Origin: Microbacterium sp. 10M-3C3
Lineage (GTDB): Bacteria; Actinomycetota; Actinomycetes; Actinomycetales; Microbacteriaceae
Reading direction: 5' to 3'
Assembly (NCBI RefSeq): GCF_003931875.1
Contig: NZ_CP034245.1
Span: forward strand, 1,612,001-1,676,000
Length of the DNA: 64,000 nucleotides
The notes beneath the pieces are model-generated. The model was not told where the DNA came from and searched no databases. It saw nothing but the letters and a program-made list of their open reading frames with translations. How positions within the stretch are numbered: position 1 is the first letter of the stretch; the number at the start of each line of letters is the position of its first letter. Shown in pieces: positions 1 through 64,000 of this stretch. A program made the position numbers and the translations under genes.

Positions 1-623
1 ACCCTCGACCAGTTGCGCGCGGATGTCGCCGGCGACATCCTCGTCGACGGGCAGGTCGCGGCGTATCCGGAGCACGCGCGCGGGATCGCCGCGACCGTCA
101 CGGTCACCGTGCCCGCTCTCGCCCTCCTGGACGACGCGTACGCCGACCCGGCCGCACCGCCGGTCGTCGAGGGCGTCGGACCGATCCCGCTGTCGCGGGC
201 GCGGGAGCTGTGCGGGGCGGCGGCCAGCTGGATGCGGGTGCTCACCCACCCGAGACCGGGATCGTGCTCTCCGTCGGCCGCGACACCTACCGTCCCCCGG
301 CCGATCTGCGCCGCCTCATCCGGTGGCGTGCGCAACGCTGCCAAGCCCCCGGATGCGGCATGCCCGCGCACCGCTGCCACATCGACCATCAAGCGCCCTG
401 GTCAAACGGCGGCCGCACCGACCTCGACAACCTCGCCCCGTTGTGCACGAACCATCACATCGTGAAACACCACGGCGGCTGGACCGTGCGTCACCTGCCC
501 GGCGGCACCCTCGAATGGACCTCGCCCCTCGGCCGCCGCTACCTCGTCCGCCCCACCCGCCCCGTCTTCGCCCCCACCCCCCACGCCCCACCCCAGCCCA
601 CACCCGACCCACCACCCTTCTGA
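1..623 (+). pseudogene. DUF222/13E12-type HNH endonuclease, 3' part, one frameshift
   Basis: Only the C-terminal part lies in the window; the gene starts to the left. Frame 1 encodes the end of the DUF222 region (GPIPLSRARELCGAA). Reading then has to move to frame 3 near 250, where a base is missing in the CACCC|GAGACC stretch, to give ETGIVLSVGRDTYRPP. The HNH nuclease domain follows, with CQAPGC, the HIDH histidine-aspartate pair, the asparagine of DNLAPLC and the final NHH. The tail is a low-complexity Pro/Thr-rich stretch. These multicopy actinobacterial proteins resemble HNH nucleases of mobile introns and inteins, but their job is unknown. The break is probably a sequence error, since the reading on both sides is fully conserved. 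Confidence 0.8.
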
Positions 624-660
624 CGCTGCGCGCCGAGACGCGCATGTCGGCGCCCGGGTC

Positions 661-673
661 TACCGTGACGGTC
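661..673 (+). promoter_or_regulatory. Leaderless promoter -10 for the RibD/DHFR-like gene
   Basis: TACCGT at 661-666 is followed by seven bases and then the ATG at 674. This TANNNT-N6/7-start arrangement is typical of leaderless transcripts in Actinobacteria and recurs before at least eleven other genes in the window. No ribosome binding site is present. Confidence 0.45.
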
Positions 674-1235
674 ATGCCCGGACGATCTTCCACACCGCCG
701 TCACACTCAACGGATTCCTCGCGACGACTACGACGGCCTCGACTGGCTGTTCGCCGTTCCGGGCGTGCCGAGGCGGAGAAACGACTTCGCCGCGTTTCCT
801 GGCGACGGTCGGGTCGTTCGTCATAGGCGCGGCGACCTACGAGTGGGTGCTGCGCCACGAGCGCGAGACTCAACCCGGCATGTGGCGGGAGAGCTACGGG
901 GCCACGCCGTGCTTCGTCGTGACGCATCGCGAACTCGAGACCATCGACGGTGCCGTCGTCCGGTTCGTCCGCGGGCACGTGGACGCATGGTGGCCGCATG
1001 TCGTGGCCGCCGCCGGTGACGGCGACATCTGGCTCGTCGGCGGTGGTGACCTCGTCGGCAGGTCGACGACGCCGGTCACCTCGACGAGGTGCGGGTCTCG
1101 ATCGCTCCGGCACTGCTCTCCTCCGGCAAGCCGCTCCTCCCCCGCCGCATCGGCCCCGACCGGCTCGAGCTGACAGCCGCCGCCCGCGCGGGCCAGTTCA
1201 TCGAGGCCACCTACCGGGTCGGTCCGCGAGCGTAG
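674..1235 (+). pseudogene. Dihydrofolate reductase-like (RibD C-terminal domain) protein, several frameshifts
   Basis: Stitching frames gives a protein of roughly 188 residues: FHTAVTLNGFLADDYDG near the start, GSFVIGAATYEWVL, then PCFVVTHRELETIDGAVVRFV, GDIWLVGGGDLVG and a C-terminus reading APALLSSGKPLLPRR. This is the layout of the RibD_C/DHFR-like family, an NADPH-dependent reductase fold, where GGGDLV lies in the nucleotide-binding region. Members are usually annotated only as dihydrofolate reductase family proteins, with unknown substrate. At least five single-base shifts are needed (near 686, 725, 770, 800 and 1062-1068). The intact conserved blocks in every frame argue for sequence errors more than decay. 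Confidence 0.75.
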
Positions 1236-1244
1236 GATCGGTCG
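1233..1244 (+). promoter_or_regulatory. Leaderless promoter -10 overlapping a TAG stop codon
   Basis: TAGGAT at 1233-1238 lies six bases before GTG 1245. Its first three bases are the stop codon of the preceding reductase gene. Confidence 0.4.
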
Positions 1245-1911: not shown

Positions 1912-1923
1912 CGCTGCCCCGGG

Positions 1924-2694: not shown

Positions 2695-2730
2695 CGGATC
2701 AGCTACGACCGCCGCGCCGCGACCGCGTGC

Positions 2731-4058
2731 TCAGCGATCGTCGAGGGCCCGTCCGCGGCGATCGGCGAGCCCCCCACGTCGCCACGACAGCGACGACGAA
2801 GAACGCCGCGAAGACGACGAACACCGTGGGAGCCCCGCCGGCGGCGATGAGCGGCGGCACCGACAGCGGCGCGAGATCGACGCGATCCGGCGACTCCGGC
2901 GGCCCAGCCCCGACCCGGTCGCGCGCATCGAGGTCGGATATGTTCGGGCGTCACGGCGTACAGCGCGCCCCACGCGCCGAGGTTGGAGAACGACAGCGCC
3001 ATCCCGCGGCGATGACGAAGCTTCACCGCTCGCCGGTGCGAACAGGAGGGCGGAGACCCGAGGAGCGGCAGGAAGACGGGCCGAGGGGTCGTCCGGCGGC
3101 CCCACACCTCGATGAGCCACGCGGCGACGGCGTAAGCCGGGCAGCTGCGCGAGCGTGATGACGAGCGTGAATCCGAACGAGGCCACCAGGTCGTAGCCCT
3201 GCGACACGAGGATCGACGGAATCCAGATGAAGGCGCCGTAGTACGAGAAGTTCACACAGAAACACACCACCCACAGGCTGGCCGTCCGTCGGCGGAACTC
3301 CGCCGACCACAACGCGCCGACCCGCTCCGACGCGCGCGGCCGCGACGGTCGGAGTGCCAGCGTCGCGGTGGCCACGGGCGCGGAGCCACCGGCCTCGCGC
3401 TCGAACGACGCGACGATCCCTCGGCGGCCGACGTCCGCCCCCGCCGTTCGAGCCATCGCGGCGACTCGGGAAGCGCCCAGCGGACCACCACCGCGTAGAT
3501 CGCGGCACCGCGCCGAGCGCGAACGCCCAGCGCCAGCGTCCGCGGACGCGGGGATCACGAAGTAGCCGATGAGGGCCGCCGCCCGTCCAGCCGACCCGCC
3601 CAGAACGCCTCGAGGATCACGATGAGCGACCCCGGATCCGCGCCGGTGCGAACTCGCTCACATACGTCGAGGCGACGGGAAGTCCGCCCGAGACCGAGTC
3701 GACGAAGAAAGCGAGCGCGATCAGGATGCGAGGCGCCCGCAGCGCGCTCGCGCCGGTCCGCGAGGCCGTAGACGAGGAGAGTCACGGCGAACACCTGACG
3801 CGGCCGAACCGGTCGGCGAGGAGGCCTCCGAGGCTCGCGCCACGGCCATGCGGCGAAGCCCGCCGACGCGATCCACGCCGTCTCCCCCGGCTGCAGCGAC
3901 CACTGCTGCCGAGGGCGGCGATGACGAACGAGATGAGACCGACGTCCATCGCGTCCAGCGCCCACCCGATCCCCGACCCACCGAGGATGCGGCGTGTCCG
4001 CGGGAGAAGCGAGACGGTCGAGACGCTCGGAGACGGTGCGACGCACGGGGGCGCTCAT
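2731..4058 (-). pseudogene. MFS transporter (sugar-porter-like), frameshifted
   Basis: The reconstructed protein is about 440 residues with the twelve-helix pattern of major facilitator superfamily carriers. It begins MSAPVRRTVSERLDRL. Loop 2-3 shows a Gly-Arg-Arg motif before QVFAVTLLVYGLA. The central loop holds WALPESPRWLERRG, the PESPRW signature that sugar porters carry after helix 6. The second half includes SLWVVCFCVNFSYYGAFIWIPSILV and the C-terminal PTSMRATGSG, typical of the sugar-porter/niacin-type branch. The substrate is unknown. Many shifts (for example near 3990, 3870, 3590, 3470, 3130 and 2900) break the frame. The -10 box for this gene overlaps the stop codon of the oxidoreductase gene upstream. 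Confidence 0.75.
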
Positions 4059-4070
4059 CCGTTCAGCCTA
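4059..4070 (-). promoter_or_regulatory. Leaderless promoter -10 of the MFS transporter gene
   Basis: On the minus strand TAGGCT (4070-4065) is followed by six bases and the ATG at 4058. The first three bases are also the TAG stop of the neighbouring oxidoreductase gene. Confidence 0.45.
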
Positions 4071-5114: not shown

Positions 5115-5204
5115 TGCGTCTCCTTCGTATTCACCTGCATGAAACGCACGGGCGGCGCGCACATTCCCGAGCGGTGGGCCGTGCGTCGCGCGGCCCACCG
5201 GGTG

Positions 5205-6888: not shown

Positions 6889-6896
6889 CGACCAGA

Positions 6897-9531
6897 TCAG
6901 TGGCCGGCTTCGTTCCAGTCGCCGCCTCGCCCGATCTGCACGTCGAGGGGCACGCTCAGCTCGGCGGCGTCGCCCATGCGCGTCTGCACGATGCGCTCCG
7001 CCTCGTTCCACTCCCCCGGGGCGACCTCGACCACGAGCTCGTCGTGGATCTGCAGCAGGACGCGCGAGCGCATGCCGGCGGCGGCGAGGTCGTCGTGGAT
7101 GTGGAAGAGCGCGATCTTCATGATGTCGGCCGCACTCCCCTGGATCGGGGCGTTCAGCGCCGCGCGCTCGGCGTTCTCGCGGAGCACGCGGTTCATGCTC
7201 GTGAGATCCGGGAAGGGGCGACGACGTCCGAAGATCGTCTCCGTGTAGCCGTCGACGCGGGCCTTCTCGACCGACGTGCGCAGGTAGTCGCGCACCGCGC
7301 CGAAGCGGGCGAAGTACTCGAGCATCAGCTCGCGCGCCTCGGTCTGCTCGATGCGCAGCTGCTTGGACAGGCCGAACGCCGACAGGCCGTACACGAGGCC
7401 GTACGACATGGCCTTCACCTTCGTGCGCATCGCGGGCGTCACGTCCTCGGGGGCGACGCCGAACACGCGCGCGCCGACGAAGCGGTGCAGGTCCTCCCCG
7501 AGTTGAACGCCTCCACCAGCCCGGGGTCACCGGACAGATGCGCCATGATGCGCATCTCGATCTGCGAGTAGTCCGCCGTCAGCAGCGTCTCGTACCCGGC
7601 GCCGACCTCGAACGCCGCGCGGATGCGGCTGCTCTCCTCGTTGCGGATCGGGATGTTCTGCAGGTTGGGGTCGGTGCTCGAGAGCCGCCCGGTCTGGCTG
7701 CCGGTCTGCAGGTAGGTCGTGTGGATGCGGCCGCCGTCGTCGATCGCGACGTCGAGCGATTCGATGATCTGCCGCAGCTTGGTCGCCTCGCGGTGCTGCA
7801 GGAGGAGGGCGAGGAACGGATGCGGGTGTTCTCCTGCAGGTCGGCCAGAGCCGCCGCATCCGTCGAGTAGCCCGACTTCGTCTTGCGGGTCTTGGGGAGT
7901 CCTAGCTCGTCGAAGAGCACCTCCTGGAGCTGCTTGGGCGAGCCGAGGTTCACTTCACGGCCGATCGCGGCGTACGCCTCCTGCGCGAGCGCATCGGCGC
8001 GGGCCGCGAGCTCGCCGGAGAACGTCGAGAGCTTCTCATGCGAGACGGCCACGCCCGCCAGCTCCATCGCGGCGAGGGCCCGCAGCGTCGGCAGCTCGAT
8101 GTCGGTGAGCACCGCCGCGACGGGCTCCGGCAGCTCGGCCCGCACGGCCTCGGCCACGCGCAGCAGGAACCACGAGATCTGCCCCGGCGTCGCGCCCTCG
8201 GTCTCGGGGACGAGCTGCGTGGGGTCGGCCTCGGGGAGCTTCTCGCCCAGGTAGCGGGCGACGAGGTCGGCGAGGTACTTGTCGGGGAGGCTCGGGCGCA
8301 GCAGCCACCCCGCGAGCACGACGTCGAACGCGAGCCCCGACACCTCGAGCCCGTCGCGCAGCAGCGCCTTGACCTGTGGCTTCGCGTCGGCGAACACCTT
8401 CGGCGCGTCGGAGGCGAACCACGCGGCGACCGCGTCGCGCACTGCCGGCGACCACGTCGCCTCGACGGCCTCGCCGCCGGCGGACAGGCCGATGCGGTCG
8501 GGGCGGCCGCCGGCCACCTCGACCGTGACGCCGACGTCGCCCGATGCGGCGTCGAGCCACGCGCCGAGCGCGGCGGCGTCGACCTCGCGCGCGGCCGGGG
8601 CGGTGGCGACGGGGATCGACGCGTCGGAGCCCGTCGCATCCGCCCCCGCCACCTCGAACACGCGCGGCAGCAGCGTGCGGAACTCCAGCCGCGCGAAGAT
8701 GTCGCGCACGGCCTGCGCGTCGATCGGCTGCGTCGCGAGGTCGGCCGGCCCGATGGGCAGCTCGACGTCGCGGACGAGCCGGTTGAGCGTGCGGTTGCGT
8801 CGTACGTCGTCGAGGTGCTCGCGCAGGTTGTTCCCCACGACGCCCGTGACCTTGTCGGCGTTCTCGAGCAGCGCGTCGAGCGAGCCGTACTGCGTGAGCC
8901 ACTTGACGGCGGTCTTCTCCCCCACCTTCGGCACGCCCGGCAGGTTGTCGCTCGTCTCGCCGACGAGCGCGGCGATGTCGGGGTACTGCGCGGGCGGCAG
9001 GCCGTACTTCTCGACGACGGCGGCCGGGTCGTAGCGCTTGAGCTGCGAGACGCCCTGTACGTTCGGGTAGAGCAGGGTCACGTCGTCGTCGACGAGCTGG
9101 ATCGTGTCGCGGTCGCCCGAGCACACGAGCACACGGAAGCCCTCCTCCTCGCCGCGCGTGGCGAGGGTGGCGAGGATGTCGTCGGCCTCGACCCCCTCCT
9201 TCTGCAGCACCGGCACGTTCATCGCGGCCAAGCACTCCTGCAGGAGCGGGATCTGGCCCTTGAACTCCGGGGGCGTCTCGGAGCGGTTCGCCTTGTACTC
9301 GGCGTACGCCTCGGTGCGGAACGAGTGGCGCGACGTGTCGAAGGCCACCGCGACGTGCGTCGGGCGCTCGGCCTTCAGGAGGTTCACGAACATCGACAGG
9401 AATCCGTAGATGCCGTTGGTGTGCTGGCCGTCCTTGGTCGAGAAGTTGTCGACGGGCAGCGCATAGAAGGCGCGGTACGCGAGCGAATGGCCGTCGACGA
9501 CCAGAAGGGTAGGCTTTGCGGAGTCCGTCAC
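6897..9531 (-). CDS. polA: DNA polymerase I (two apparent 1-base deletions in this sequence)
   Basis: About 878 residues when repaired; replicative gap-filling and repair polymerase. The GTG start at 9531 has a -10 box six bases upstream. The N-terminal 5'-nuclease domain is complete (VDGHSLAYRAFY, VAFDTSRHSFRTEAY, VEADDILATLA, SGDRDTIQLV). The middle 3'-5' exonuclease-like domain (about 310-480) lacks the Asp-x-Glu metal ligands, reading VTVEVAGGRPD instead, so proofreading is probably absent, as in other actinobacterial PolA. The polymerase domain shows motif A (ADYSQIEMRIMAHLSGD), the finger motif (KAMSYGLVYGLSAFGL) and motif C (QIHDELVVEV). The frame breaks near 7822 (C missing before HPFLALLLQHRE) and near 7502 (G missing in FNSGEDLH). 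PolA is usually essential or nearly so, which is why I treat these as sequence errors. Confidence 0.93.
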
Positions 9532-9543
9532 CCGTCAAGCCTA
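9532..9543 (-). promoter_or_regulatory. Leaderless promoter -10 of polA
   Basis: TAGGCT at 9543-9538 on the minus strand, six bases, then GTG 9531. It fixes the polA start. Confidence 0.5.
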
Positions 9544-20358: not shown

Positions 20359-21620
20359 AGCTTGGTCCCGACGCCGTGCGCCGCGTCGACGTCGGCGGCG
20401 GCCGCGGCGAGGGCCTCGGCGGGGTCGCGGTCGTACAGCTCGAAGTAACGGGCGGCGGTGTCCATGTCCTTGTCACCGCGTCCGGACAGGCAGATGGCGA
20501 GCACCGCGTCGGGGCCGAGCTCGCGTCCGATCCGGAGCGCGCCGGCCAGCGCGTGCGCCGATTCGATCGCGGGGATGATGCCCTCGGTCTCGCTGAGCAG
20601 GCGCAGCGCCTGCATCGCCTCGTCGTCGGTGGCGGGGATGTACTCGGCCCGTCCGATCGCGGCCAGCCACGCGTGCTCGGGGCCGACGCCCGGATAGTCC
20701 AGGCCCGCGGAGATGGAGTGCGACTCGACGGTCTGACCGTCCTCGTCCTGGAGGACGAACGTGCGGGCCCCGTGGAGCACGCCCGCGCGGCCGCGCTCGA
20801 TAGAGGCGGCGTGGCGCGGGGTGTCGACGCCGTCGCCGGCCGCTTCGACGCCGTACAGCTTGACGTCGGCGTCGTCGAGGAACGCGTCGAACATGCCGAT
20901 CGCGTTCGACCCGCCGCCCACGCACGCGAAGACCGCGTCGGGAAGGCGGCCGACCTCGTCGAGGAGCTGCTGCCGCGCCTCCTCGCCGATGATCTTCTGG
21001 AAGTCGCGCACCATCGCCGGGAACGGGTGCGGGCCGGCCGCGGTGCCGAAGATGTAGTTCGTCGTCTCGACGCTCGCGACCCAGTCGCGGTAGGCCTCGT
21101 TGATCGCGTCCTTGAGCGTGCGCGAGCCCGTGCGCACCGGAATGACCTCGGCGCCGAGGAGCCGCATCCGCGCGACGTTCAGCGCCTGCCGCTCGGTGTC
21201 GACCTCGCCCATGTAGATCGTGCAGTCGAAGCCGAACAGCGCGGCGGCGGTCGCGGTGGCCACCCCGTGCTGGCCGGCGCCGGTCTCGGCGATCACGCGC
21301 GTCTTGCCGAGGCGCTGGGTGAGGAGCGCCTGGCCGAGCACGTTGTTGATCTTGTGCGATCCGGTGTGGTTGAGGTCTTCGCGCTTCAGGAAGACGCGGG
21401 CGCCGCCGGCGTGGGCGGCGAAGCGCGGCACCTCCGTGAGGACGGACGGGCGTCCCGCGTAGCTGTGCAGCAGGCCGCGCAGCTCGTCGAGGAAGGCCGG
21501 ATCGGCCATCGCCGCCTCGTAGACGGCGGTCAGCTCGTCGATGGCGGCGATGAGCGACTCGGGCATGTACCGGCCGCCGAAGTCGCCGAAGAACGGACCG
21601 GGCTGGTCGCGCAGGCTCAT
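20355..21620 (-). CDS. trpB: Tryptophan synthase beta subunit
   Basis: 421 residues. A PLP enzyme that condenses indole with serine. The PLP lysine lies in [15 protein letters not shown], followed by the phosphate-binding [12 protein letters not shown] and the C-terminal [21 protein letters not shown] at the N-terminus is the standard TrpB opening. Both ends overlap neighbours by 4 bases (trpC stop and trpA start), so the trpCBA block is one translational unit. Confidence 0.97.
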
Positions 21621-23754: not shown

Positions 23755-24515
23755 GCCCGCACCTCGATCCCTTCGGTCGCAAGAGCCTGCTTGACCTCGC
23801 CGACGGTCAGCATGCCGCTGTGGAACACGGATGCGGCGAGCACGGCGTCCGCTCCGGCGTGGACGGCCGGCGCGAAGTGGTCCAGGGCGCCGGCGCCGCC
23901 GGAGGCGATGACCGGGACGCTCGAGACCTCGCGCATGAGCGTGACCAGCTCGAGGTCGAAGCCGTTCTTCGTGCCGTCGGCGTCGATGGAGTTCACCAGC
24001 AGCTCGCCGGCGCCGCGCTCGGTGGCCTCGCGCGCCCACTCCAAGGCGTCGAGCGTCGTCTCGGTACGACCGCCGTGCGTCGTCACGACGAAGCCGGACG
24101 GCGTCGACGGAGAGCGCTTGACGTCGAGCGAGAGCACGAGCACCTGCGCGCCGAAGCGGTCGGCGATCTCGTCGAGAAGGCCCGGCCGGGCGATCGCGGC
24201 GGAGTTGACGCCGATCTTGTCGGCTCCGACCGACAGCAGCCGTGCGACGTCGTCGACGGTGCGCACTCCCCCGCCGACGGTGAGCGGGATGAAGACCTGC
24301 TCGGCCGTACGGCGCACGACGTCGTACGTCGTGGCGCGCTCGTCGACCGTCGCGGTGACGTCCAGGAACGTGATCTCATCGGCGCCCTGCGCGAAGTACA
24401 GCGCCGCGAGCTCGACGGGATCCCCCATGTCGCGCAGGTTCTCGAAGTTCACGCCCTTGACCACGCGCCCGGCGGCGACGTCCAGGCACGGGATGACGCG
24501 GCGGGCCAGCGACAT
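23751..24515 (-). CDS. hisF: Imidazole glycerol phosphate synthase cyclase subunit
   Basis: 254 residues. With HisH it makes imidazole glycerol phosphate and AICAR from PRFAR. The catalytic aspartates are in [18 protein letters not shown] (Asp11) and VLSLDVK (about Asp130). Phosphate-binding loops are TVGGGVRT and IASGGAG. hisH and hisA are not in the window. The gene lies between hisG (16-base gap) and hisI (4-base overlap). Confidence 0.97.
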
Positions 24516-38706: not shown

Positions 38707-39203
38707 GCGGCGTCTCCTGTCGGGAGGATGGGGCGGATGGCGTCCACGAGGGCGCGCGCGGAGGCGCCCTGCGGACGGAGATACGTGTCGACGACGGTGC
38801 CGTCGTCGGTGCGCCACGACACGCGCGCGAGGCCGTCGCGCTCGACGACGCGGTCGATCGCGACGCTCGCCTGCCCGATGTCGACGAGGCGGTCGGCGGG
38901 CAGCAGCATGCGCGGTTGACCGGGCAGGTCGAGCACGACGCCGGCGTCGGTGACGCGGACCTCGGCGCGCGAGCGGAACGCGAGCCCGCGGATCGCGAGC
39001 CGCTCGAGCGGCTCGTCGTGCCGCGTCGTGGCGACGTACAGGCCCGAGAACGCCGCGAGCTCGCGCGCGCCGGCGGGGACATCGCCGATCGGGGTCGACA
39101 GGCCCGCGTCGCGGCGGGTGCGCCGCATCCACGCCCACACGAGCGCGCCGAGCAGGGCCACCGCGACCACGATCATCACGACGAGGGCGCCTTCGCGGCT
39201 CAC
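38703..39203 (-). CDS. Membrane-anchored PH-like protein of the pyr operon
   Basis: 166 residues: one N-terminal transmembrane helix ([21 protein letters not shown]), then a soluble domain with a beta-rich pattern ending [22 protein letters not shown] small membrane protein sits at exactly this place, between pyrC and carA, in other Actinobacteria (Rv1382 in M. tuberculosis). Its role in pyrimidine synthesis is not known to me. The GTG start overlaps the pyrC stop (GTGA), and its own stop overlaps carA, so it is translationally embedded in the operon. Confidence 0.8.
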
Positions 39204-47839: not shown

Positions 47840-48295
47840 TCAGCCGTCGGCGCGCCCGGTGATGACGTCGATGAGGAGCGCGACCGCCCGCGCGTAGCCG
47901 GCGACGCCCTCTCCCACGACGTGCACGGCGGCGACATCGGCGATGTACGAGTGCTGCCGGAAGTCCTCGCGCGCCGACAGGTCGGAGATGTGCACCTCGG
48001 CGACCGGCAGCGCGATCGCGCTCAGCGCGTCCCGCAGCGCGATCGAGGTGTGCGTGTACCCGCCCGCGTTGATGACGATGCCCGCGCAGTCCTCGCGCGC
48101 GTCCTGAATCGCGTCGATGAGCACGCCCTCGTGGTTGCTCTGCACGGCGCGCACCTCGAACCCGCGGGCGGCCGCCGCATCCGTCGTCAGCTTCTCGACG
48201 TCGGCGAGCGTCGCCGTGCCGTAGATCCCCGGCTCGCGCGTGCCGAGCAGGTTGAGGTTCGGGCCGTTGACGAGGAGGAGGCGGCGATCGGTCAC
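47840..48295 (-). CDS. aroQ: Type II 3-dehydroquinate dehydratase
   Basis: 151 residues from the chosen GTG at 48295. Dodecameric type II enzyme of the shikimate pathway. Motifs: LLLVNGPNLNLLGTREPGIYG (catalytic tyrosine), INAGGYTHTSIALRDAL, and EVHISDLSAREDFRQHSYI with the catalytic histidine. A GTG nine bases further upstream (48304) is also in frame, but TACCGT ends seven bases before 48295 and overlaps the upstream GTG, which favours a leaderless start at 48295. It is separated from aroB by the molybdenum gene island. Confidence 0.93.
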   Translation of the reverse strand: MTDRRLLLVNGPNLNLLGTREPGIYGTATLADVEKLTTDAAAARGFEVRAVQSNHEGVLIDAIQDAREDCAGIVINAGGYTHTSIALRDALSAIALPVAEVHISDLSAREDFRQHSYIADVAAVHVVGEGVAGYARAVALLIDVITGRADG

Positions 48296-49874: not shown

Positions 49875-50161
49875 CCGCTGCGCACGCACCGCTGCCGCCG
49901 GAGGCGCTCGACGGCTGGGCCGACGCCCTGCGCGAGCACTTCCAGCTGGGCGCCGACGACATCCCCATCGCTGCCGTGCTGGACCTCGCGCGCGACGTGG
50001 CGAACGGCGTCGCCCGCCCCGCGGCGCCCCTCAGCGCGTTCGTCGCGGGGCTGGCGGCCGGCCGCGCGGGCGGCAGCCCCGCCGACGCCCGTGCCGCGAT
50101 CGACGCCGTGGTGGCGCTGGCGCACGAGTGGCCCGTGCGCGGGGACGCCGCATCCGGCTGA
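49871..50161 (+). CDS. DUF6457-like small protein
   Basis: 96 residues, mostly helical, reading LPPEALDGWADALREHFQLGADDIPIAAVLDLARDVANGVARPAAPLSAFVAGLAAG. Proteins like this follow mobA in many Actinobacteria and are annotated only as a domain of unknown function (DUF6457). Translational coupling to mobA (ATGA) suggests a role with molybdenum cofactor or its client enzyme; no catalytic motif is visible. Convergent with the molybdoenzyme gene, three bases apart. Confidence 0.7.
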   Translation: MTAAHAPLPPEALDGWADALREHFQLGADDIPIAAVLDLARDVANGVARPAAPLSAFVAGLAAGRAGGSPADARAAIDAVVALAHEWPVRGDAASG

Positions 50162-53050: not shown

Positions 53051-54120
53051 CCCGCGACCTCCTGATAGGCCGCGAACAGCAGCGACTCGTCGGGGGCCTG
53101 CAGCACCGTGGGCCGGGCGATGTCGTCGAGGACGATGAAGCGCAGCATCCCGCCGCGGCTCTTCTTGTCGCGCTGCATGGTGGCCAGCAGCTGCGGCCAC
53201 GCGCCCGCGCGGTAGGTCAGGGGAAGTCCCAGCGCACCGAGGACGTCGCGATGGCGCTGCACCGCCGCATCCGGGAGCCGGCCGGCCAGGCGCGACAGCT
53301 CGGCGGCGAAGACCATGCCGATCGAGATGGCGGCGCCGTGACGCCACCGGTAGCGCTCGGCGTGCTCGATCGCGTGGCCGAGCGTGTGCCCGTAGTTCAG
53401 CACTTCGCGCAATCCGGCCTCGCGCAGGTCGTCGCCGACGACGCGGGCCTTCATGTCGATCGCGAGCTCGATCGCCCGGCGGAACGGCTCGCTGCGCGGA
53501 TCGACCACGGCCACGGGGTCTGCCTCGATGAGGTCGAGGATCTCGGCGTGCCAGATGAACCCCGCCTTGACGACCTCCGCGAAGCCCGCGACGCGCTCGT
53601 TGGGGGACAGCCCGTCGAGGAGGTCGAGGTCGCACACGACGGCGCGCGGCGGCCAGAACGCGCCCACGAGGTTCTTTCCCTCGGCGGTGTTGATGCCGGT
53701 CTTGCCGCCCACGGCGGCGTCGACCATGCCGAGCACCGTCGTCGGCACCTGCACGACGGCGATGCCGCGCAGCCACGTCGCGGCGACGAATCCGGCGAGG
53801 TCGGTCACGGCGCCGCCGCCGAAGCCGACGATCGCGTCGGTGCGGGTGAAGTCGGACTGCCCGAGGATCTGCCAGCAGAACGCGGCGACCTCGACGCGCT
53901 TGCCCTGCTCCGCATCCGGGATCTCGGCGAGGAGCACCTCGCGATCGCCGAGCAGCGACTGACGCAGCGCCGCCGCCTGTTCGGCGAGGGTGGGCGGGTG
54001 GATCACGAGCACCTTCCGGGCCGCATCCGGCAGGACCTCGCCGAGCGTGTCGAGCACACCGCGACCGATCGTGACGTCGTACGGGGCGTCGCCGGCAACG
54101 GTGATGACGGTGGTGCTCAT
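53047..54120 (-). CDS. aroB: 3-dehydroquinate synthase
   Basis: 357 residues. Second step of the shikimate pathway, NAD- and zinc-dependent. NAD and substrate motifs: [45 protein letters not shown] and [12 protein letters not shown]. Zinc ligands lie in [11 protein letters not shown] and [13 protein letters not shown]. The ATG at 54120 overlaps the aroK stop by 4 bases. Confidence 0.97.
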
Positions 54121-54638
54121 GTGTGACTCGTTCCGGTCGGGGCGATGCGCCACCAGCGCACCACGGCGTCGACGACCGCCTGCAGCGGCCCGTGTGAGGT
54201 GTCGAAGGTCGCGTCGGCGACCTCCTCGTAGAGGGGGCGGCGCTGCGCGTAGATCTCCTGCCATCGCGCGACCAGGTCGTCGCCAGCGACGAGGGGGCGA
54301 TGTCCGCCGCGGATGCGCCCGCCGACGATCTCGGGGGCGACCGTGAGGAAGGCGACGCGGTGGGCGCCGAGGTCTTCCCGCGTCTGCGGATCCAGCACCG
54401 CCCCGCCGCCGAGCGACACCACGCCGCCCGACGCGAGCGCCGCGGCCACGGCGTCCCGCTCGAGCCGCCGGAACTCCGCCTCGCCGCGTTCGGCGAAGAG
54501 GACGGGGATCGGGCCGTGCTCGCGCACGACCGCCGCATCCGTGTCGGTGAAGGGCAGGCCGATCGCGCGCGCCACGCGGCGGCCGATGCTCGTCTTGCCG
54601 GCGCCCATCGGGCCGATCAGGACGAGCGCGTCAGGCAC
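54117..54638 (-). CDS. aroK: Shikimate kinase
   Basis: 173 residues. P-loop [17 protein letters not shown], the shikimate-binding DTDAAV and [11 protein letters not shown] blocks, and the lid arginine in [11 protein letters not shown]. Phosphorylates shikimate. The GTG at 54638 is chosen as it directly precedes [14 protein letters not shown] and overlaps aroC by 8 bases; longer in-frame versions are unconserved. The gene contains one of the GGATGCGGC words in the Asp-Ala-Ala codons. Confidence 0.94.
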
Positions 54639-55860
54639 TGCCGTCGGACGCGGCCAGGGTGGCGTCGGTGGTCGCGGTCGTGCGCAGCTGGCGGTCGATC
54701 GCGTCGAGGTAGCCGAGCAGGTTGCGACGCGTCTCGCCGACACTGTCGCCGCCGAACTTCTCCAGCACCGCCTCGGCCAGGACGATCGCGGTCATCGCCT
54801 CGGCGACGACGCCCGCGGCCGGCACCGCGCACACGTCGGAGCGCTGGTGGTGCGCGGATGCGGCCTCGCCCGTGGCGACGTCGATCGTGCGCAGGGCGTG
54901 GGGAACGGTCGCGATCGGCTTCATGCCCGCGCGGACACGCAGCACGGTGCCCGTCGACATGCCGCCCTCGGTGCCGCCGGCCCGGTCGGTCGCGCGCGCG
55001 ATGCCGTCGGCCGTGGCGAAGAGCTCGTCGTGCGCCTGCGATCCGCGACGCGTCGTGGTGAGGAAGCCGTCACCGACCTCGACGCCCTTGATCGCCTGGA
55101 TGCTCATGAGCGCCTGCGCGAGCTTGCCGTCAAGGCGGCGGTCCCAGTGCACGTGCGAGCCGAGCCCCGGCGGCAGACCATACGCGAGCACCTCCACGAC
55201 GCCACCGAGGGTGTCGCCGTCTTTGCGGGCCGCGTCGACCTCGGCGACCATGCGCTCGCTCGTGGCGGCGTCGAAGCAGCGCAGCGGATCCGCGTCGAGC
55301 GCGTCGACGTCGTCGGGGGTGGGCAGCGCCGCGTCCTCCGGGACGCGCACGGGACCGATCGAGAGCGTGTGGCTGACGAGGCGGATGCCGAGCTCGCCCA
55401 GGAACGCACGCGCGAGGGCGCCGAGCGCGACGCGCGCGGCGGTCTCTCGGGCGCTCGCGCGCTCGAGGACGGGGCGCGCCTCGTCGAAGTCGTACTTCTG
55501 CATGCCCACGAGGTCGGCGTGCCCGGGGCGGGGGCGCGTGAGCGCCGCACCGCGTCCGCGCGAGCGGTCGGTCAGCTCGACGGGCTCGGGGCTCATCACC
55601 TCGACCCACTTCGGCCATTCGGTGTTGGTGATGCGCAGGGCGATGGGGCTCCCGAGCGACACGCCGTGCACGACGCCGGACGAGATCGTCAGCTCGTCCT
55701 CTTCGAACTTCATGCGCGAACCGCGACCGTAGCCGAGCTTGCGGCGGGCGAGATCAGCGCGGATGGCCGACGACGCGATGGGGACGCCCGAGGGCAGTCC
55801 CTCCATGATGGCGACGAGTTCGGGGCCGTGCGATTCGCCGGCCGTGAGCACGCGGAGCAT
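54631..55860 (-). CDS. aroC: Chorismate synthase
   Basis: 409 residues. Final shikimate pathway step; needs reduced FMN. Family blocks: [34 protein letters not shown] segment (here [18 protein letters not shown]), [19 protein letters not shown], and the C-terminal [17 protein letters not shown]. Met 55860 ([12 protein letters not shown]) is the conserved start; an in-frame codon 24 bases upstream lacks support. Four bases separate it from aroE. Confidence 0.97.
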
Positions 55861-55864
55861 TCCC

Positions 55865-56698
55865 CTAGTCTCCCACGAGCGCACGGCGCATCGCCGCGAG
55901 GACGGCAGGCTCCGACTGCACCGGCCGGGCGGGATCGCCCGCCACGAACACGCGCACCTGGAGGAGCGCCTGGTGCAGCAGCATCGGCAGACCGGACACG
56001 GCGGCGGACCCGGCGGCCACCCACGCCTCGGCCAGCGCGGTGGGCCATCCGCCGTACACGACGTCGACGAGGAGCCCGCCGTGCTGGGCGAGGGGCGCGG
56101 CCGCTGCGCCGAGATCGGTGCCGCCGGGAAGGGTCGACACGGTCACGTCGACGCGGGCGGCAGGCGTGCTGCCGAAGCGTGCCGCGGTCACCTCGATGTC
56201 GAGCGCCGACCCGAGCGCTGCGAGCGGGGCGACCGCCTCGGTCCGCCGCGCCACGACCTCCACGTCGCGGGCACCGAGGTCGGCGAGGGCGACAAGGGCG
56301 GAGGTGGCGGTCGCTCCCGCGCCGAGAATCCGCGCCCGCTCCACGCGCTCGACGCCCTGCTCGTGGAGGGCGCGGACGAGACCGCCGACGTCGGTGTTGA
56401 AGCCCCGCGGTCCCTCGGCGGTGAGCACGAGGGTGTTCACAGCACCGGTGCGCTCGGCCGCCGCATCCAGGGTCACGGCGGTGCGCGCGGCGATGGATTT
56501 GAGGGGCATCGTGAGCGACAGGCCGCGCCAGGACGCGTCCAGCGCCGCGAGCGCTGCCGGGAACGCCGCCTCGTCGACCCGCGCGCGCCCGTACTCCCAG
56601 TCGACCTCGAGCACGCGATAGGCGGCCGTGTGCAGCGCGGGCGACAGGCTGTGCGCGATGGGATCGCCCCACACCGCGAGGCGCGTGCCGGTCAGCAT
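55865..56698 (-). CDS. aroE: Shikimate 5-dehydrogenase
   Basis: 277 residues. Reduces 3-dehydroshikimate with NADPH. Substrate-binding [20 protein letters not shown], catalytic lysine in [12 protein letters not shown], the Asn-Thr-Asp in [12 protein letters not shown], and a Rossmann glycine loop [15 protein letters not shown]. The C-terminal [12 protein letters not shown] is also typical. Overlaps the mltG stop by 7 bases. Its sequence is the more divergent actinobacterial AroE type, but all key residues are present. Confidence 0.94.
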
Positions 56699-58140: not shown

Positions 58141-58141
58141 G

Positions 58142-58615: not shown

Positions 58616-61278
58616 TCCCCCGTGTCGGTGAGCCCGGACACGACGGCGTGGAGCGCCGCCGGCAGCGCCGCCGCATCCGTCCCGCCGCCCTGGGCGACGT
58701 CGTCGCGTCCACCGCCGCCCCCGCCGAGCGCGGCCGCCGCGACCTTCGCGAGCACGCCCGCCTTCGCGCCCGCGGCGCGCGCGGCCTCGGTCGTGGCGAC
58801 CACGACGGTCACTCGCTCGCCCAGCTGGGCAGCCAGCGCCACGACCGCCGACGCGTCCCCGAGGCGATCGCGCACCTGGAGCGCCAGCGTGCGCACGTCG
58901 TCGGCCGATCCGGCCGTACCGATCGACTCCGCCACCACGCGGAAGCGGCCCGCTTCGCGCGCGGACTGCGCGAGCTGCGGCGCACGATCGCCCAGTGCGC
59001 GCGCCTCGAACTGCGCGATGCGCTTCTCGGCGGCCTTCAGATTCGCGGCGAGCTCGGCGATGCGGGCGGGCAGCTGGTCGCGCGGGGTCTTCAGCGACGT
59101 GGACAGCTGCGACACGATCGCGCGCTCGGCCGCGAGGTCGCGGAACGCGTCCAGTCCGACGAGCGCCTCGACGCGGCGGTTCGACGCCCCCACCGACGAC
59201 TCGCCGACGAGGTTGATCAGGCCGATCTCGGCGCTGGAGCCGACGTGCGTGCCCGCACACAGCTCGCGCGACCACGGGCCGCCGATGTCGACCATGCGGA
59301 CGGTGTCGCCGTACTTCTCGCCGAACAGCGCCATCGCGCCGAGCTCGCGCGCCTGATCCAGGGGCAGCACGCGCGTGGTGACCTCGAGGTTGTCGCGGAC
59401 GGCGTTGTTGGCGATCTCCTCGATCTCCGTGCGCGTCTCGGGCGACAGCGCCGAGCTCCACGAGAAGTCGAAGCGCAGGTAGCCGGCGCGGTTGAGCGAT
59501 CCGGCCTGGGTCGCCGAGCTGCCGAGCGTGTCGCGCAGGGCCGCGTGCACGAGGTGGGTCGCGGAGTGCGCCTGGCGCGCGGCACGGCGGTTCGCCGCAT
59601 CCACGACCGAGGTCGCCGGCTCCCCCACCGCGACCTCGCCGGTCGTCACCTGGACGGTGTGGCTCACCAGGCCCGGAACGGGCTTCTGCACGTCGAGCAC
59701 CTCGAGCTCGTAGCCGGGGCCGATGATGACGCCCTTGTCGGCGACCTGGCCGCCCGACTCGGCGTACAGCGCCGTCTCGGCGAGGATCACCTCGGCGATC
59801 TGCCCGACCGACGCCCGGTCGACCGACACGCCGTCGACGAGCACGCCAAGCACGCGCGACTCGGTCTCGAGGTCGGTGTAGCCGGTGAAGACGGTCTCCC
59901 CGAGCGCGCGGAAGTCGCGGTACACGCTGTGGTCGGCGATCGCGCGCTTGCGCGACTTCGCGTCAGCCTTCGCGCGCTGGCGCTGCTCCTGCATGAGCGT
60001 GTCGAAGGCCGAGCGGTCGACCGACAGCCCCGCCTCCTCCGCGATCTCGAGCGTCAGGTCGATCGGGAACCCGTACGTGTCGTGCAGCAGGAACGCCTCC
60101 GACCCGGAGATCTCCGAGCCGCCCGAGCGCTTGGTGTCCTCGACGGCGAGGTCGAGGATCGTCGAGCCCGCCGCGAGCGTACGCAGGAACGTCTCCTCCT
60201 CCGCGAACGCGTACTGCGAGATGCGCTGCCAGTCCTTCTCCACGACCGGGTAGGCGTCCTTCATCGCGTCGCGCGACGCCGAGAACAGCTCGGGGAAGGT
60301 CGCGCCGTCGACGCCCAGCAGGCGCATCGCGCGGATGCTGCGGCGCATGAGGCGGCGCAGGATGTAGCCGCGCCCGTCGTTGGACGGCGTGACGCCGTCG
60401 GAGAGCAGCATCAGCGACGAGCGCACGTGGTCGGCGATGACGCGGAAGCGCACGTCGTCCTCGTGCGCGGCGCCGTAGCGGCGGCCGGACAGCTCGACGG
60501 CGCGGTCGAGGACGGGGCGCACCTGGTCGGTCTCGTACATGTTGTCGACGCCCTGCTTGATGAAGGCGACGCGCTCGAGGCCCATCCCGGTGTCGATGTT
60601 CTTCGCCGGCAGGTCGCCGACGATGTCGAAATCGATCTTGGAGCGGACGTTCGTGATCGCGTACTGCATGAACACGAGGTTCCAGATCTCGGTGAAGCGG
60701 TTGTCGTCGACCGCCGGACCGCCGTCGCGCCCGTACGCCGGACCGCGGTCGAAGTAGATCTCCGAGCACGGGCCTGCGGGACCGGGCTGGCCGGTCGACC
60801 AGTAGTTGTCCTCGCGGCCGAGCCGCTGGATGCGATCGGCCGGCAGGCCCGCGATCCTCCGCCAGAGGTCGGCCGCCTCGTCGTCGTCCTGATAGACGGT
60901 GACCCACAGGTCCTTCTCCGCGAAGCCGAGGCCGCCGTCGCGCTCGGGCGTGGTGAGCAGCTCCCACGCGTAGGAGATCGCTCCCTCCTTGAAGTAGTCG
61001 CCGAACGACCAGTTGCCGAGCATCTGGAAGAACGTGCCGTGGCGGGCGGTGTGGCCGACCTCCTCGATGTCGTTCGTGCGGATGCACTTCTGCACGTCGG
61101 CCGCCCGCGGATACGGCGCCGGCACCACCCCGGTGAGATACGGGATGAAGGGGACCATGCCGGCCACGGTGAACAGCAGCGACGGGTCGTCGGTCACGAG
61201 CGAGGCCGACGGGACGATGGTGTGGTCGTTCTTCTCGAAGTAGTCGAGGTAGCGCTGGGCGATCTCAGCGGTCTTCAT
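58612..61278 (-). CDS. alaS: Alanyl-tRNA synthetase
   Basis: 888 residues. Class II catalytic core: RHGTFFQMLGNWSFGDYFKE (motif 2 region), FDRGPAYG, EIWNLVFMQY, NIDTGMGLERVA (motif 3). The editing domain has the zinc motif split between HSATHLVHAALRDTL and LCAGTHV. The C-terminal C-Ala domain ends with the glycine-rich GGGGGGRDD. Met 61278 is the conserved MKTAEIAQRYLDYFE start. It heads the alaS-ruvX-mltG-aroE-aroC-aroK-aroB-GNAT operon. Confidence 0.98.
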   Translation of the reverse strand: MKTAEIAQRYLDYFEKNDHTIVPSASLVTDDPSLLFTVAGMVPFIPYLTGVVPAPYPRAADVQKCIRTNDIEEVGHTARHGTFFQMLGNWSFGDYFKEGAISYAWELLTTPERDGGLGFAEKDLWVTVYQDDDEAADLWRRIAGLPADRIQRLGREDNYWSTGQPGPAGPCSEIYFDRGPAYGRDGGPAVDDNRFTEIWNLVFMQYAITNVRSKIDFDIVGDLPAKNIDTGMGLERVAFIKQGVDNMYETDQVRPVLDRAVELSGRRYGAAHEDDVRFRVIADHVRSSLMLLSDGVTPSNDGRGYILRRLMRRSIRAMRLLGVDGATFPELFSASRDAMKDAYPVVEKDWQRISQYAFAEEETFLRTLAAGSTILDLAVEDTKRSGGSEISGSEAFLLHDTYGFPIDLTLEIAEEAGLSVDRSAFDTLMQEQRQRAKADAKSRKRAIADHSVYRDFRALGETVFTGYTDLETESRVLGVLVDGVSVDRASVGQIAEVILAETALYAESGGQVADKGVIIGPGYELEVLDVQKPVPGLVSHTVQVTTGEVAVGEPATSVVDAANRRAARQAHSATHLVHAALRDTLGSSATQAGSLNRAGYLRFDFSWSSALSPETRTEIEEIANNAVRDNLEVTTRVLPLDQARELGAMALFGEKYGDTVRMVDIGGPWSRELCAGTHVGSSAEIGLINLVGESSVGASNRRVEALVGLDAFRDLAAERAIVSQLSTSLKTPRDQLPARIAELAANLKAAEKRIAQFEARALGDRAPQLAQSAREAGRFRVVAESIGTAGSADDVRTLALQVRDRLGDASAVVALAAQLGERVTVVVATTEAARAAGAKAGVLAKVAAAALGGGGGGRDDVAQGGGTDAAALPAALHAVVSGLTDTGE

Positions 61279-61351
61279 GGGCGGTTCTTTCGCGTGGCGC
61301 GGTGGCCGGCCGGTGTGCCGGTCGGCGCGGAGGCTCGGGGGCGGGCGGGTG

Positions 61352-61588: not shown

Positions 61589-61705
61589 GGGCACCACTCC
61601 TCGTTCGGGCCGCGGACGCGGCATCCCTTCATCGTAGACAGAATGCGCGGAAGGGCGCCGGGGAGACCCCGACGCCCTTCCGATGAGCGAACGCTGAGAC
61701 TCAGC

Positions 61706-61837
61706 GCGCCGCTTAGCGCGCCGCGTAACAGCGCCGACGGCCGCTGCGCGGCTGTACTCCGCGCCGCTTAACGCGCCGCGTAACAGAGCCGACGGCCGCT
61801 GCGCGGCTGTACTCCGCGCCGCTTAGCGCGCCGCGTA
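61706..61837. repeat. 55-bp tandem repeat, about 2.4 copies, ending inside rpsD
   Basis: GCGCCGCTTARCGCGCCGCG begins at 61706, 61761 and 61816, exactly 55 bases apart. The first two units are full and nearly identical (single-base differences). The third is the true 3' end of rpsD including its TAA codon. Each full unit also carries a GCCGC-GCA-GCGGC hairpin. The unit length is not a multiple of three, so the copies are untranslated. Lies between rpsD and the small membrane protein gene. Confidence 0.9.
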
Positions 61838-62452
61838 GTACTCGACGACGAGCTGCACGTCACACGTGACCGGCACCTCGGCACGCTTGGGGCGACGCAC
61901 GAGACGCGCCTGCAGCGTGGAGAGGTCGACCTCGAGGTAGCCGGGGACGGGGGGCAGCACCTCGGCGTGCCCGCCGGCGGCGGCGACCTGGAAGGGCTCG
62001 AGACCCTCGCTCTTCTGCTTGACGTGGATGAGCTGGCCCGGCTTCACGCGGAACGACGGGCGGTCGACGAGCTGGCCGTCCACGAGGATGTGGCGGTGCA
62101 CGACGAGCTGGCGCGCCTGCGCCGTGGTGCGGGCGAAGCCCGAGCGGAGCACGAGGGCGTCCAGGCGCATCTCGAGCAGCTCGACGAGGTTCTCACCCGT
62201 CAGGCCGTCGGTGCGACGGGCCTCGTTGAACGCGATGCGCAGCTGCTTCTCGCGGATGCCGTACTGCTCGCGCAGACGCTGCTTCTCACGCAGACGGACG
62301 GCGTAGTCGCTGTCGGCCTTGCGCTTGGTGCGGCCGTGCTCGCCCGGAGCGTAGGGACGCTTCTCGAGGTAGCGGGCGGCCTTCGGGGTCAGCGCGACGC
62401 CGAGCGCGCGCGACAGACGGACCTTGCGGCGGTCCTGGGACTTCGTAGCCAC
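61823..62452 (-). CDS. rpsD: 30S ribosomal protein S4
   Basis: 209 residues. It starts ATKSQDRRKVRLSRALGVALTPKAARYLEKRPYAPGEHGR and has an S4 RNA-binding domain (about 98-160, MRLDALVLRSGFARTTAQARQLVVHRHILVDGQLV). The N-terminal zinc cysteines of the C+ type are absent, making this a zinc-independent (C-) S4. Nucleates 30S assembly. GTG start at 62452, with GGAAGG eight bases upstream. The leader can pair with that site, and the 3' end is tandemly repeated downstream. Confidence 0.97.
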   Translation of the reverse strand: MATKSQDRRKVRLSRALGVALTPKAARYLEKRPYAPGEHGRTKRKADSDYAVRLREKQRLREQYGIREKQLRIAFNEARRTDGLTGENLVELLEMRLDALVLRSGFARTTAQARQLVVHRHILVDGQLVDRPSFRVKPGQLIHVKQKSEGLEPFQVAAAGGHAEVLPPVPGYLEVDLSTLQARLVRRPKRAEVPVTCDVQLVVEYYAAR

Positions 62453-62607
62453 GAAGTGTTCCTTCCGATGACGCGGCCGTGTCTCTCACGGCTCGCGGAC
62501 GTATCCCCCGCTCTTCGCCCTCCTGGACTGCACGCCGGAGCACGCCAGGAGGTCTTGGTCGGAAGAGGGAGATGCCCGAAAACCCGGTTTCGGGCCGATC
62601 AAGCCTA
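62453..62607 (-). promoter_or_regulatory. Structured rpsD leader with possible Shine-Dalgarno sequestration
   Basis: TAGGCT (62607-62602) is a likely -10. The transcript would begin near 62595 with a 7-bp CCCGAAA/TTTCGGG hairpin (62594-62575). CCTCCTGG/CCAGGAGG (62552-62519) forms a second stem. CTTCCGA (62565-62559) is complementary to TCGGAAG (62468-62462), which contains the rpsD Shine-Dalgarno sequence. This fits autoregulation by S4 but has not been shown for this group to my knowledge. Confidence 0.5.
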
Positions 62608-62683
62608 TCAGAGCTGCGCCCGCCCGCACGGATCCGCCCCTTCGGCGGGCGCGGAGGGGCCGGGCGGTGCGAGCGAAGGGCCG

Positions 62684-64000
62684 TCAGTCGCCGTCGAGGA
62701 TGCGACGGATCTTCTCCACCCGCGCGGCGATGTCGCGCTCGACGCCGCGGTTCGTGGGGGCGTAGTAACGGCGCCCCTGAAGCTCGTCGGGAAGGTACTG
62801 CTGCGTCGCGACGCCGACGTCCAGGTCGTGCGGATAGACGTATCCCTTGCCGTGACCGAGGCGCTTGGCACCGGGATAGTGGGCGTCGCGCAGGTGCACG
62901 GGGACGCGGCCGAAGCCGCCCGCGCGCACGTCGGCGATCGCCGCGTCGATGGCCGTGTAGACCGCGTTCGACTTGGCGGTCGTCGCGAGATAGGCGGTCG
63001 CCTCGGCGAGCGGGATGCGCCCCTCGGGCATGCCGATGAAGGCGACCGCGTCGGCGGCGGCCACTGCGATCTGCAGAGCCTGCGGATCCGCCAGTCCGAT
63101 GTCCTCCGCCGCGGAGATCACGAGGCGCCGCGCGATGAAGCGCGGATCCTCGCCGGCCTCGATCATGCGGGCGAGGTAGTGCATCGCCGCATCCACGTCG
63201 GAGCCCCGGATCGACTTGATGAACGCGCTGGTCACGTCGTAGTGCTCGTCGCCCTGCCGGTCGTAGCGCAGCAGCGCGCGGTCGACGGCCTGGGCGATGT
63301 GCGCGGCGGTGATCGTGGGCGTCTGGCCGTCGGAGGCGTCATCGGCCGCGACGGATGCGGCCGCCTCGAGGGCCGTCAGGGCGCGCCGCGCGTCACCCGA
63401 CGCCAGCCGGACGAGTGCGGCGCGCGCCTCGGGTTCGAGCACGACCGCGCCGTCGAGCCCGCGCGGGTCGCTCACGGCCCGGTCGACGAGCAGCCCGAGA
63501 TCGTCGTCGCCGAGGGGCTTCAGCGTCAGCAGCAGCGAGCGGGACAGCAGCGGCGAGATCACCGAGAACGACGGGTTCTCCGTCGTCGCGGCGATGAGCA
63601 CGACCCAGCCGTTCTCGACGCCCGGCAGCAGCGCATCCTGCTGCGCCTTCGTGAAGCGGTGGATCTCGTCGAGGAAGAGGATCGTCGACTGCCCGTAGAG
63701 GTCGCGCTGGTTCAGCGCCTCCTGCATCACCTCGCGCACGTCCTTGACACCCGCCGTGATCGCCGACAGCTCGACGAACCGGCGCCCGGACGAGCGAGCG
63801 ATCGCCTGGGCCAACGTCGTCTTGCCGGTTCCGGGCGGACCCCACAGGATCACCGACACCGACGCGCTCGTGGGGGTCGTGTCGGCGGACGCGAGCGCGA
63901 CCAGCGGCGACCCGCGGCTCAGCAGGTGGCCCTGCCCGGCGACCTCGTCGAGGGAGGTCGGCCGCATCCGCACGGCGAGCGGCGTCGAGCCCTGGAAGAG
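62684..64000 (-). CDS. rarA: Replication-associated recombination protein A (RarA/MgsA), 5' end beyond the window
   Basis: At least 438 residues. AAA+ ATPase of the clamp-loader type acting at stalled forks. Walker A is [17 protein letters not shown], Walker [21 protein letters not shown], sensor 1 [13 protein letters not shown], and the C-terminal tetramerisation part has [13 protein letters not shown] and GKGYVYPHD. The reading frame stays open to position 64000 through [20 protein letters not shown], so the real start lies to the right; the ATG at 63973 is internal. Order rarA-rpsD-alaS is usual. Confidence 0.95.

Follow-up and report, generated by a model that had tools for sequence, protein, structure and literature searches.

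The stretch of DNA analysed here, referred to below as the window, comprises 64,000 bases of Microbacterium sp. 10M-3C3 (NZ_CP034245.1, positions 1,612,001-1,676,000 of a single contig of 3,387,846 bases). It carries, among other genes, polA, alaS and a gene named carB in a preliminary description, and it is strewn with a short word, the 9-mer GGATGCGGC, which is the subject of this study.

A short word in the window and along the chromosome

The word occurs in 28 exact copies in the window, 12 on the plus and 16 on the minus strand (Table 1). In 100 dinucleotide shuffles of the window, the mean was 2.29 copies (standard deviation (sd) 1.53, largest 6). The preliminary description had listed 22 starts against a rough expectation of about two; every one of these is an exact match and the over-representation holds, while six copies, marked in Table 1, had been missed. 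It had also noted a majority on the minus strand, which is correct for the listed starts (15 of 22) and is lost in the full set (16 of 28, binomial p 0.57); the word thus shows no strand bias in the window.

Table 1. Exact copies of GGATGCGGC in the window (CDS, coding sequence; new, not among the starts of the preliminary description).
Word	Positions	Strand	Context
GGATGCGGC	351..359	+	outside called CDS
GGATGCGGC	3985..3993	+	outside called CDS
GGATGCGGC	7621..7629	+	antisense in polA; new
GGATGCGGC	7723..7731	+	antisense in polA; new
GGATGCGGC, full CGGATGCGGCG	7853..7861	-	in polA
GGATGCGGC	21161..21169	-	
GGATGCGGC, full 11-mer	23829..23837	+	antisense in CDS 23751-24515
GGATGCGGC	26215..26223	+	new
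GGATGCGGC, full 11-mer	28141..28149	-	
GGATGCGGC	30280..30288	+	left half of abutting inverted pair, inside CDS
GGATGCGGC	30289..30297	-	right half of abutting inverted pair, inside CDS
GGATGCGGC as TGGATGCGGCG	36108..36116	-	in CDS 34262-37549 (carB in the preliminary description)
GGATGCGGC, full 11-mer	37112..37120	+	antisense in CDS 34262-37549
GGATGCGGC, full 11-mer	38325..38333	+	new
GGATGCGGC as TGGATGCGGCG	39122..39130	-	new
GGATGCGGC, full 11-mer	44496..44504	+	new
GGATGCGGC, full 11-mer	48174..48182	-	
GGATGCGGC, full 11-mer	50147..50155	-	antisense in CDS 49871-50161
GGATGCGGC, full 11-mer	53264..53272	-	
GGATGCGGC	54020..54028	-	
GGATGCGGC, full 11-mer	54532..54540	-	in CDS 54117-54638
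GGATGCGGC	54856..54864	+	antisense in CDS 54631-55860
GGATGCGGC as TGGATGCGGCG	56460..56468	-	
GGATGCGGC, full 11-mer	58670..58678	-	in alaS
GGATGCGGC as TGGATGCGGCG	59594..59602	-	in alaS
GGATGCGGC as TGGATGCGGCG	63186..63194	-	
GGATGCGGC	63353..63361	+	antisense in CDS 62684-64000
GGATGCGGC	63961..63969	-	

The word is not confined to the window. The complete genome (G000; other G numbers denote genomes of relatives and L numbers sampled genome stretches) contains 1,658 copies, 820 forward and 838 reverse, compared with 98 (52 and 46) of the reversed word used as a control. This corresponds to a density of about one copy per 2 kb across the whole chromosome and about 17 times the control. 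For all further analyses of G000, a sample of 864 kb was used (25.5% of the genome), which consists of 40 evenly spaced 20-kb stretches and the window. It includes 405 sites, whose flanks uphold the longer consensus YGGATGCGGCG proposed earlier: position -1 is C in a fraction of 0.76 and T in 0.13, position +9 is G in 0.83, position +10 has a faint preference for G (0.48), and little is conserved beyond. An order-4 Markov model predicts 17.0 copies of the full 11-mer CGGATGCGGCG and 4.7 of CGGATGCGGCGG, whereas 272 and 137 were observed. Among words one mismatch away from the 11-mer, the excess lies chiefly at the eighth base (A 9.3-fold, T 6.5-fold, C 2.9-fold); T at the first base reaches 6.3 times the expectation, the remaining neighbours 0 to 3.9 times, and all of them combined 433 against 207. 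As the 405 sites lack conserved flanks, the element is a short word, and a mobile repeat can be ruled out.

Several other features were noticed in the same DNA. The frame of polA (window positions 6889-9534) is broken: the upstream frame is terminated at 7579-7581, and a fragment lying in a different frame was called at 6897-7466, which reflects either real damage or an assembly error. A flavin-oxidoreductase-like gene, named by eye, at 4068-5114 also falls into separate called pieces, perhaps for the same reason. In the G000 sample (L031-L070 and the window), a second and weaker excess concerns AGGCGCT/AGCGCCT (458 vs 177) and extends to GAGGCGCT and AGGCGCTC. Elements resembling repetitive extragenic palindromes (REP) are built around GCCTGAATTC; the 864 kb contain 21 copies of GCCTGAATT, all intergenic by the gene calls and often arranged as inverted pairs and short arrays (e.g., L038, genome positions 1195444-1195799; also L032, L034, L037, L049, L050, L058 and L067).

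Excess at the level of the DNA and neutrality towards replication

A simple gene caller identified 810 genes in the sample, which is 89% coding. The sites are found in genes (353), between genes (50) and on a gene border (2), with one per 2.2 kb in coding and one per 1.8 kb in non-coding DNA. The 353 coding sites are spread over the reading frames, as had been described for the window: 162 encode Asp-Ala-Ala, 122 Ala-Ala-Ser, and 69 lie in the other four frames. That most of them use two frames could suggest that the word is a by-product, be it of the codon usage, of protein motifs or of a bias in mutation. Within-gene synonymous shuffling (30 shuffles), which preserves every protein and the codon usage of each gene, gave 55.2 coding copies of the 9-mer (sd 6.8, largest 71) and 14.9 of the 11-mer (sd 2.9, largest 22), whereas 353 and 238 were observed, a six-fold and a 16-fold excess. 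The word is likewise enriched between genes, with 50 copies of the 9-mer against 6.3-8.7 expected and 34 of the 11-mer against 1.3-2.1, and it is absent from some congeners of similar GC content (e.g., G314, 0 in 100 kb vs 5.7 expected). A codon or protein origin is rejected by the shuffles and the intergenic counts, and an origin as a by-product of any of the three kinds is very improbable. The synonymous shuffles, the intergenic excess and the similar density within and between genes support the earlier proposal that selection acts on the DNA itself.

The contig begins with genes that we take, by eye, to be dnaA, dnaN, recF, gyrB and gyrA; position 1 was used as the origin and the contig midpoint as the terminus to define the replichores. 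The sites are divided evenly between leading and lagging orientation (206:199, p 0.77), although the called genes of the same sample favour the leading orientation (484:326). Chi and the FtsK-orienting polar sequences (KOPS) are oriented with replication, and KOPS requires a strong strand skew. The suggestion that the word is KOPS-like was therefore not borne out, and KOPS can be ruled out by the missing replichore bias. The Chi-like reading fared no better for Chi as read by RecBCD, which is excluded since the RecC domain PF04257 was found in none of 40 genus genomes, with a positive result for the E. coli control.

The spacing of the sites is close to Poisson (365 gaps, coefficient of variation 1.14), and no concentration in one region was seen among the sampled stretches. 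A role in terminators was rejected, as inverted pairs of the word are not in excess. The density of the word rises with GC content across the stretches (rho 0.58, p 8e-5): the five stretches below 69% GC contain 11 copies against 4.6 expected (2.4-fold), the other 36 contain 394 against 71 (5.5-fold). Four low-GC stretches carry a transposase-like gene as well as transport and other genes that look accessory by eye; these four stretches may thus have been imported.

Dialect words in Microbacterium and its family

Four related words are found in the genus, often in more than 1,000 copies per genome, and most of the sampled genomes mainly use one of them; they are referred to here as dialects. 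The words compared were CGGATGCGG, CGGATGCCR (that is, CGGATGCC followed by A or G), the palindrome CGGATCCG and CGGAACCA, which share a common frame consisting of CGGA followed by C at once or two or three bases later. In a set of 98 genomes, made up of G000 and 97 relatives, a few members of the genus have extreme counts of the 9-mer (G035 with 1,991, G000 with 1,658, G054 with 1,497 and G050 with 682 copies); the 39 genomes from other families of the order have 46-197. The 11-mer ranges from 6 to 1,101 copies across 366 genus genomes. Words of relatives were searched for in 100 kb of 12 genomes and in 40 kb of 10 genomes with low counts. In these stretches, GGATGCC[G/A] is carried by G314, G390, G389, G394, G393 and G341, the palindrome by G133, G165, G225 and G057, and CGGAACCA by G305 and G186; no clear word was detected in the sampled DNA of G223 (100 kb) or G332 (40 kb). 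A cross-table of the four words revealed that 21 of 23 sampled genomes chiefly favour one word. Enrichment of the own word over the order-4 expectation amounts to 3.3-6.8-fold for CGGATGCGG (nine genomes), 2.5-4.8-fold for CGGATGCCR (six), 2.1-4.9-fold for CGGATCCG (four) and 4.5-5.0-fold for CGGAACCA (two). The other cells are mostly at 0-2-fold, with exceptions that rest on small counts (e.g., 8 vs 2.5), apart from G176 with 32 copies of CGGATGCCR against 15.1 expected.

CGGATGCCR is the commonest word. It was counted in 361 genus genomes and is highest in G102 (3,369 vs 141 of the control) and G339 (3,256 vs 138); 56 genomes, as read by eye from the table, have fewer than 500 copies. G000 has 619 against 90, and given how widespread CGGATGCCR is in the genus, the species of the window speaks a minority dialect. 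For CGGATCCG and CGGAACCA, the counts cover 70 genomes that were mostly picked for being poor in CGGATGCCR, so that the frequencies are not those of the genus. The palindrome has 729-3,091 sites in 24 of these genomes, 472-566 in three and 50-375 in 43. Reversed, it is again a palindrome, one that contains CTAG and makes a poor control, and the 43 low genomes therefore serve as the better baseline. The 24 palindrome-rich genomes have 77-472 copies of CGGATGCCR each. CGGAACCA is abundant in G186 (2,917), G305 (2,517) and G374 (2,372), and the other 67 genomes have 34-213. Some genomes, such as G120, G366 and G217, look mixed, being high in both CGGATGCGGCG and CGGATGCCR, and are possibly in transition between dialects. 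The assignment to Microbacterium agrees with AlaS of the window, whose 80 retained named relatives include 75 called Microbacterium. Summed over 80 AlaS loci of 22 kb, CGGATGCCR reaches 993 against 96 of the reversed control and CGGATGCGG 122 against 57; the counts per species are too small for typing.

A survey of CGGATGCGG in 199 genomes from 85 genera of the family revealed 8-13 times the control in several genera (G538, 1,356 vs 141; G582, 1,190 vs 93; G433, 1,088 vs 83; G425, 966 vs 78; G430, 1,122 vs 135); in other genera, the word is near or below the control. In genus g81, it lies well under the control (G455, 10 vs 64; G524, 19 vs 58) and is perhaps avoided.

The dialect words follow the tree of the competence protein ComEC. 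This unrooted tree contains 30 proteins, the frames of which were chosen by BLAST against ComEC of G000, and we labelled the genomes as CGGATGCGG-type (15), CGGATGCCR (5), CGGATCCG (3), CGGAACCA (3) or other (4); four of the 15 (G120, G121, G343 and G366) are also rich in CGGATGCCR. The labels require 5 changes on the tree compared with a mean of 14.0 after shuffling, and none of 200 shuffles was as low. The three CGGAACCA genomes lie on one side of a supported branch, and so do the three CGGATCCG genomes. For ComEA, reading frames could be recovered for only 4 of the 30. As a control with foreign DNA, phages were considered, and the 60 listed of 677 records included no Microbacterium phages. 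Two unrelated observations were made in the relatives: G133 (L131-L135) shows a marked excess of runs of at least eight G (GGGGGGGGG, 31 vs 0.5 in 100 kb), and G225 (L165-L166) has eight copies of GGAGAAATCA in 40 kb against an expectation close to zero, likely as a regulatory or repeat element.

The dialects also bear on three further explanations. A methyltransferase-linked word of the type of the highly iterated palindromes (HIP) would be made and maintained by a DNA methyltransferase, perhaps together with methyl-linked mismatch repair, and its dialects would follow changes of the methyltransferase. HIP words are as dense or denser, and in some species other words, among them GGGATCCC, have taken their place (PMC4390886), and one dialect here is the palindrome CGGATCCG. 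However, CGGATGCGGCG and CGGATGCCR are not palindromes as the HIPs covered in that source are, which leaves CGGATCCG as the only palindromic dialect. Moreover, the core is specified at all of its positions, and a repair bias at one base could hardly build such a word. We regard this origin as unlikely, if the least so of the alternatives.

A Chi-like recombination signal could also be read by the actinobacterial helicase-nuclease AdnAB or by AddAB. The word is genome-wide, GC-rich and scarcer in low-GC stretches, and Chi words differ between distant taxa. The known Chi words are, however, shorter than 11 bases, the word here lacks a replichore bias, and RecC was found in none of the 40 genomes. 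A strand-specific Chi, whichever nuclease reads it, is hard to reconcile with a palindromic dialect and with words that differ among congeners. We consider this reading slightly less probable than the HIP-type origin. Finally, a protein that organises the nucleoid or chromosome could bind the word and evolve together with its sites, as would suit the wide spread of the word, its near-Poisson spacing and its occurrence on both strands, within and between genes. The KOPS, matS and parS systems, however, show a strand pattern or a regional concentration, which the word in the sampled stretches does not, and a new dialect would require thousands of sites to be rewritten, which would be hard for an essential architecture protein and easier by recombination; this explanation is the more doubtful of the two.

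Competence genes, DNA uptake and known word systems

DNA uptake sequences (DUS) and uptake signal sequences (USS), which the preliminary description did not name, fit best, as uptake words best combine thousands of copies, neutrality of orientation, dialects among relatives and scarcity in imported DNA. We estimate at about 60% the probability that a word shared by the whole family serves self-recognition in DNA uptake and that GGATGCGGC, with the core YGGATGCGGCG, is the dialect of that word in this Microbacterium. The organism would then be competent, and the word would promote uptake. On the cell surface, the word in duplex DNA would be recognised by a DNA-binding protein, plausibly a minor pilin or another component associated with the Tad/Flp pilus, so that fragments containing the word are preferred; the pilus would pass the DNA on to ComEA and ComEC. 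The imported fragments would recombine, thereby copying word-creating mutations into the population, and the word would build up in all frames and on either strand, intergenic DNA included, and less so in recently imported DNA. As the specificity of the receptor drifts, the word of the genome would follow, resulting in dialects. The simplest reader would be a factor of drifting specificity that reads duplex DNA either way round, and the palindromic dialect would support such duplex reading.

The genes for such a pathway are present. In G000, the genes for ComEA (domains HHH_3 and SLBB) and ComEC (Competence and Lactamase_B) adjoin (L042), and there are two Tad-type clusters (L294 and L063). 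The cluster in L294 encodes T2SSE, T2SSF, a Flp-like DUF4244 protein and TadE and lies between genes that resemble acs and topA by eye; a Tad cluster next to these two genes was also seen in G314, G394 and G133. The DUF4244 protein carries ATAEYAI where the Flp of Micrococcus luteus has ITAEYGI, and in M. luteus a Tad-type system with a Flp pilin is needed for transformation (PMC6370729). The Tad minor pilins are no more than candidate receptors. Furthermore, a study of activated sludge reported, judging from Hi-C links, that a free plasmid had transformed Microbacterium, specified in one passage as M. oxydans (PMC10257627), which, as far as that account goes, speaks for competence in the genus and not for selectivity.

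Several observations weigh against an uptake word. The plasmid in that report was foreign and synthetic (PMC10257627), and its uptake may not have needed the word. ComEC was found in 40 of 40 genus genomes, word-poor ones included, and in the family in all 20 word-rich genomes and in 28 of the 30 that are word-poor, the two exceptions being 82% and 91% complete. T2SSE/TadA was detected in all 26 genomes tested, including G223 and G332, whose sampled DNA showed no clear word. None of the genes compared (ComEC, RecC, classical pilins and T2SSE/TadA) tracks the word, and as the machinery also occurs in word-poor genomes, its presence does not prove a link. No receptor for the word was found. Classical type IV pilin signals were seen in 1 of 21 genomes with a short model of limited reach, whereas the known DUS and USS systems use classical type IV pili and belong to Gram-negatives. 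The exception is G225 (C3:136418-141868 and C1:498483), in which three type IV pilin-like matches were observed that none of the other 20 genomes has; its match to a PilB-like ATPase is also much stronger than that of any other genome tested. Of the 70 genomes, about 23 have low counts of each of the four words; G223 and G332 are among these, as are three genomes that are less than 70% complete (G039, G267 and G308). Close inverted pairs are not enriched either, with 8 gaps below 30 bp against 6.1 expected in any orientation; in Neisseria, inverted DUS pairs at terminators are in excess, although this is not strictly defining for uptake words.

A broader proposal is that sequence-specific uptake via Tad/Flp pili extends across the Microbacteriaceae, with at least four dialects of a CGGA...C core in one genus, one lineage having switched to a palindrome, and with the dialects acting as sexual barriers between Microbacterium species; the case for and against it appears evenly balanced to us. 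No description of such words in the Microbacterium group was found among listings and abstracts of the open-access literature, preprints excluded. To our knowledge, the two families with a described DUS or USS are both Gram-negative, and DNA uptake by Gram-positive bacteria is generally regarded as non-selective. If experiments confirm the uptake role, it would be new for this bacterial group: dialects in a genus of actinobacteria that comprises hundreds of species would suggest that self-selective uptake arose independently, offer a rich natural experiment on the joint change of a receptor and thousands of sites, and provide a practical handle for transforming Microbacteriaceae. If uptake is not the cause, a process that rewrites thousands of sites between congeners equally needs explaining.

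Among the known systems, Chi and KOPS share with the word that they are over-represented genome-wide; they differ in being oriented with replication, and RecC was found in none of 40 genus genomes. USS resemble the word in occurring once per 1-2 kb in all frames; they have AT-rich flanking segments, which the word here lacks; it also belongs to a different family. Cyanobacterial HIP1 and the alternative HIPs resemble it in their high density and in their replacement by other words, including GGGATCCC, and differ in being palindromic, in contrast to the word of the window (PMC4390886, as far as covered there). With the Pasteurellaceae USS AAGTGCGGT, it shares a core of 9-10 bases and a genome-wide excess (PMC1939737). 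The Neisseriaceae have eight DUS dialects with 943-5,918 copies per genome and a CTG core, which follow phylogeny and act as barriers; one genome has two dialects, and some members of the family have no word (PMC3630211). The word described here differs in belonging to an actinobacterial family, in its core CGGA...C in place of CTG, in the rarity of classical type IV pilin signals (1 of 21 genomes), in having no excess of inverted pairs, and in its palindromic dialect, which counts further against an uptake word, as no DUS dialect is described as a palindrome in the sections of PMC3630211 drawn on here. It resembles the Neisseriaceae DUS in being a short word with copy numbers in the same range, in dialects that share a core and follow phylogeny, and in the occurrence of apparently mixed genomes and of relatives in which no word was seen (PMC3630211).

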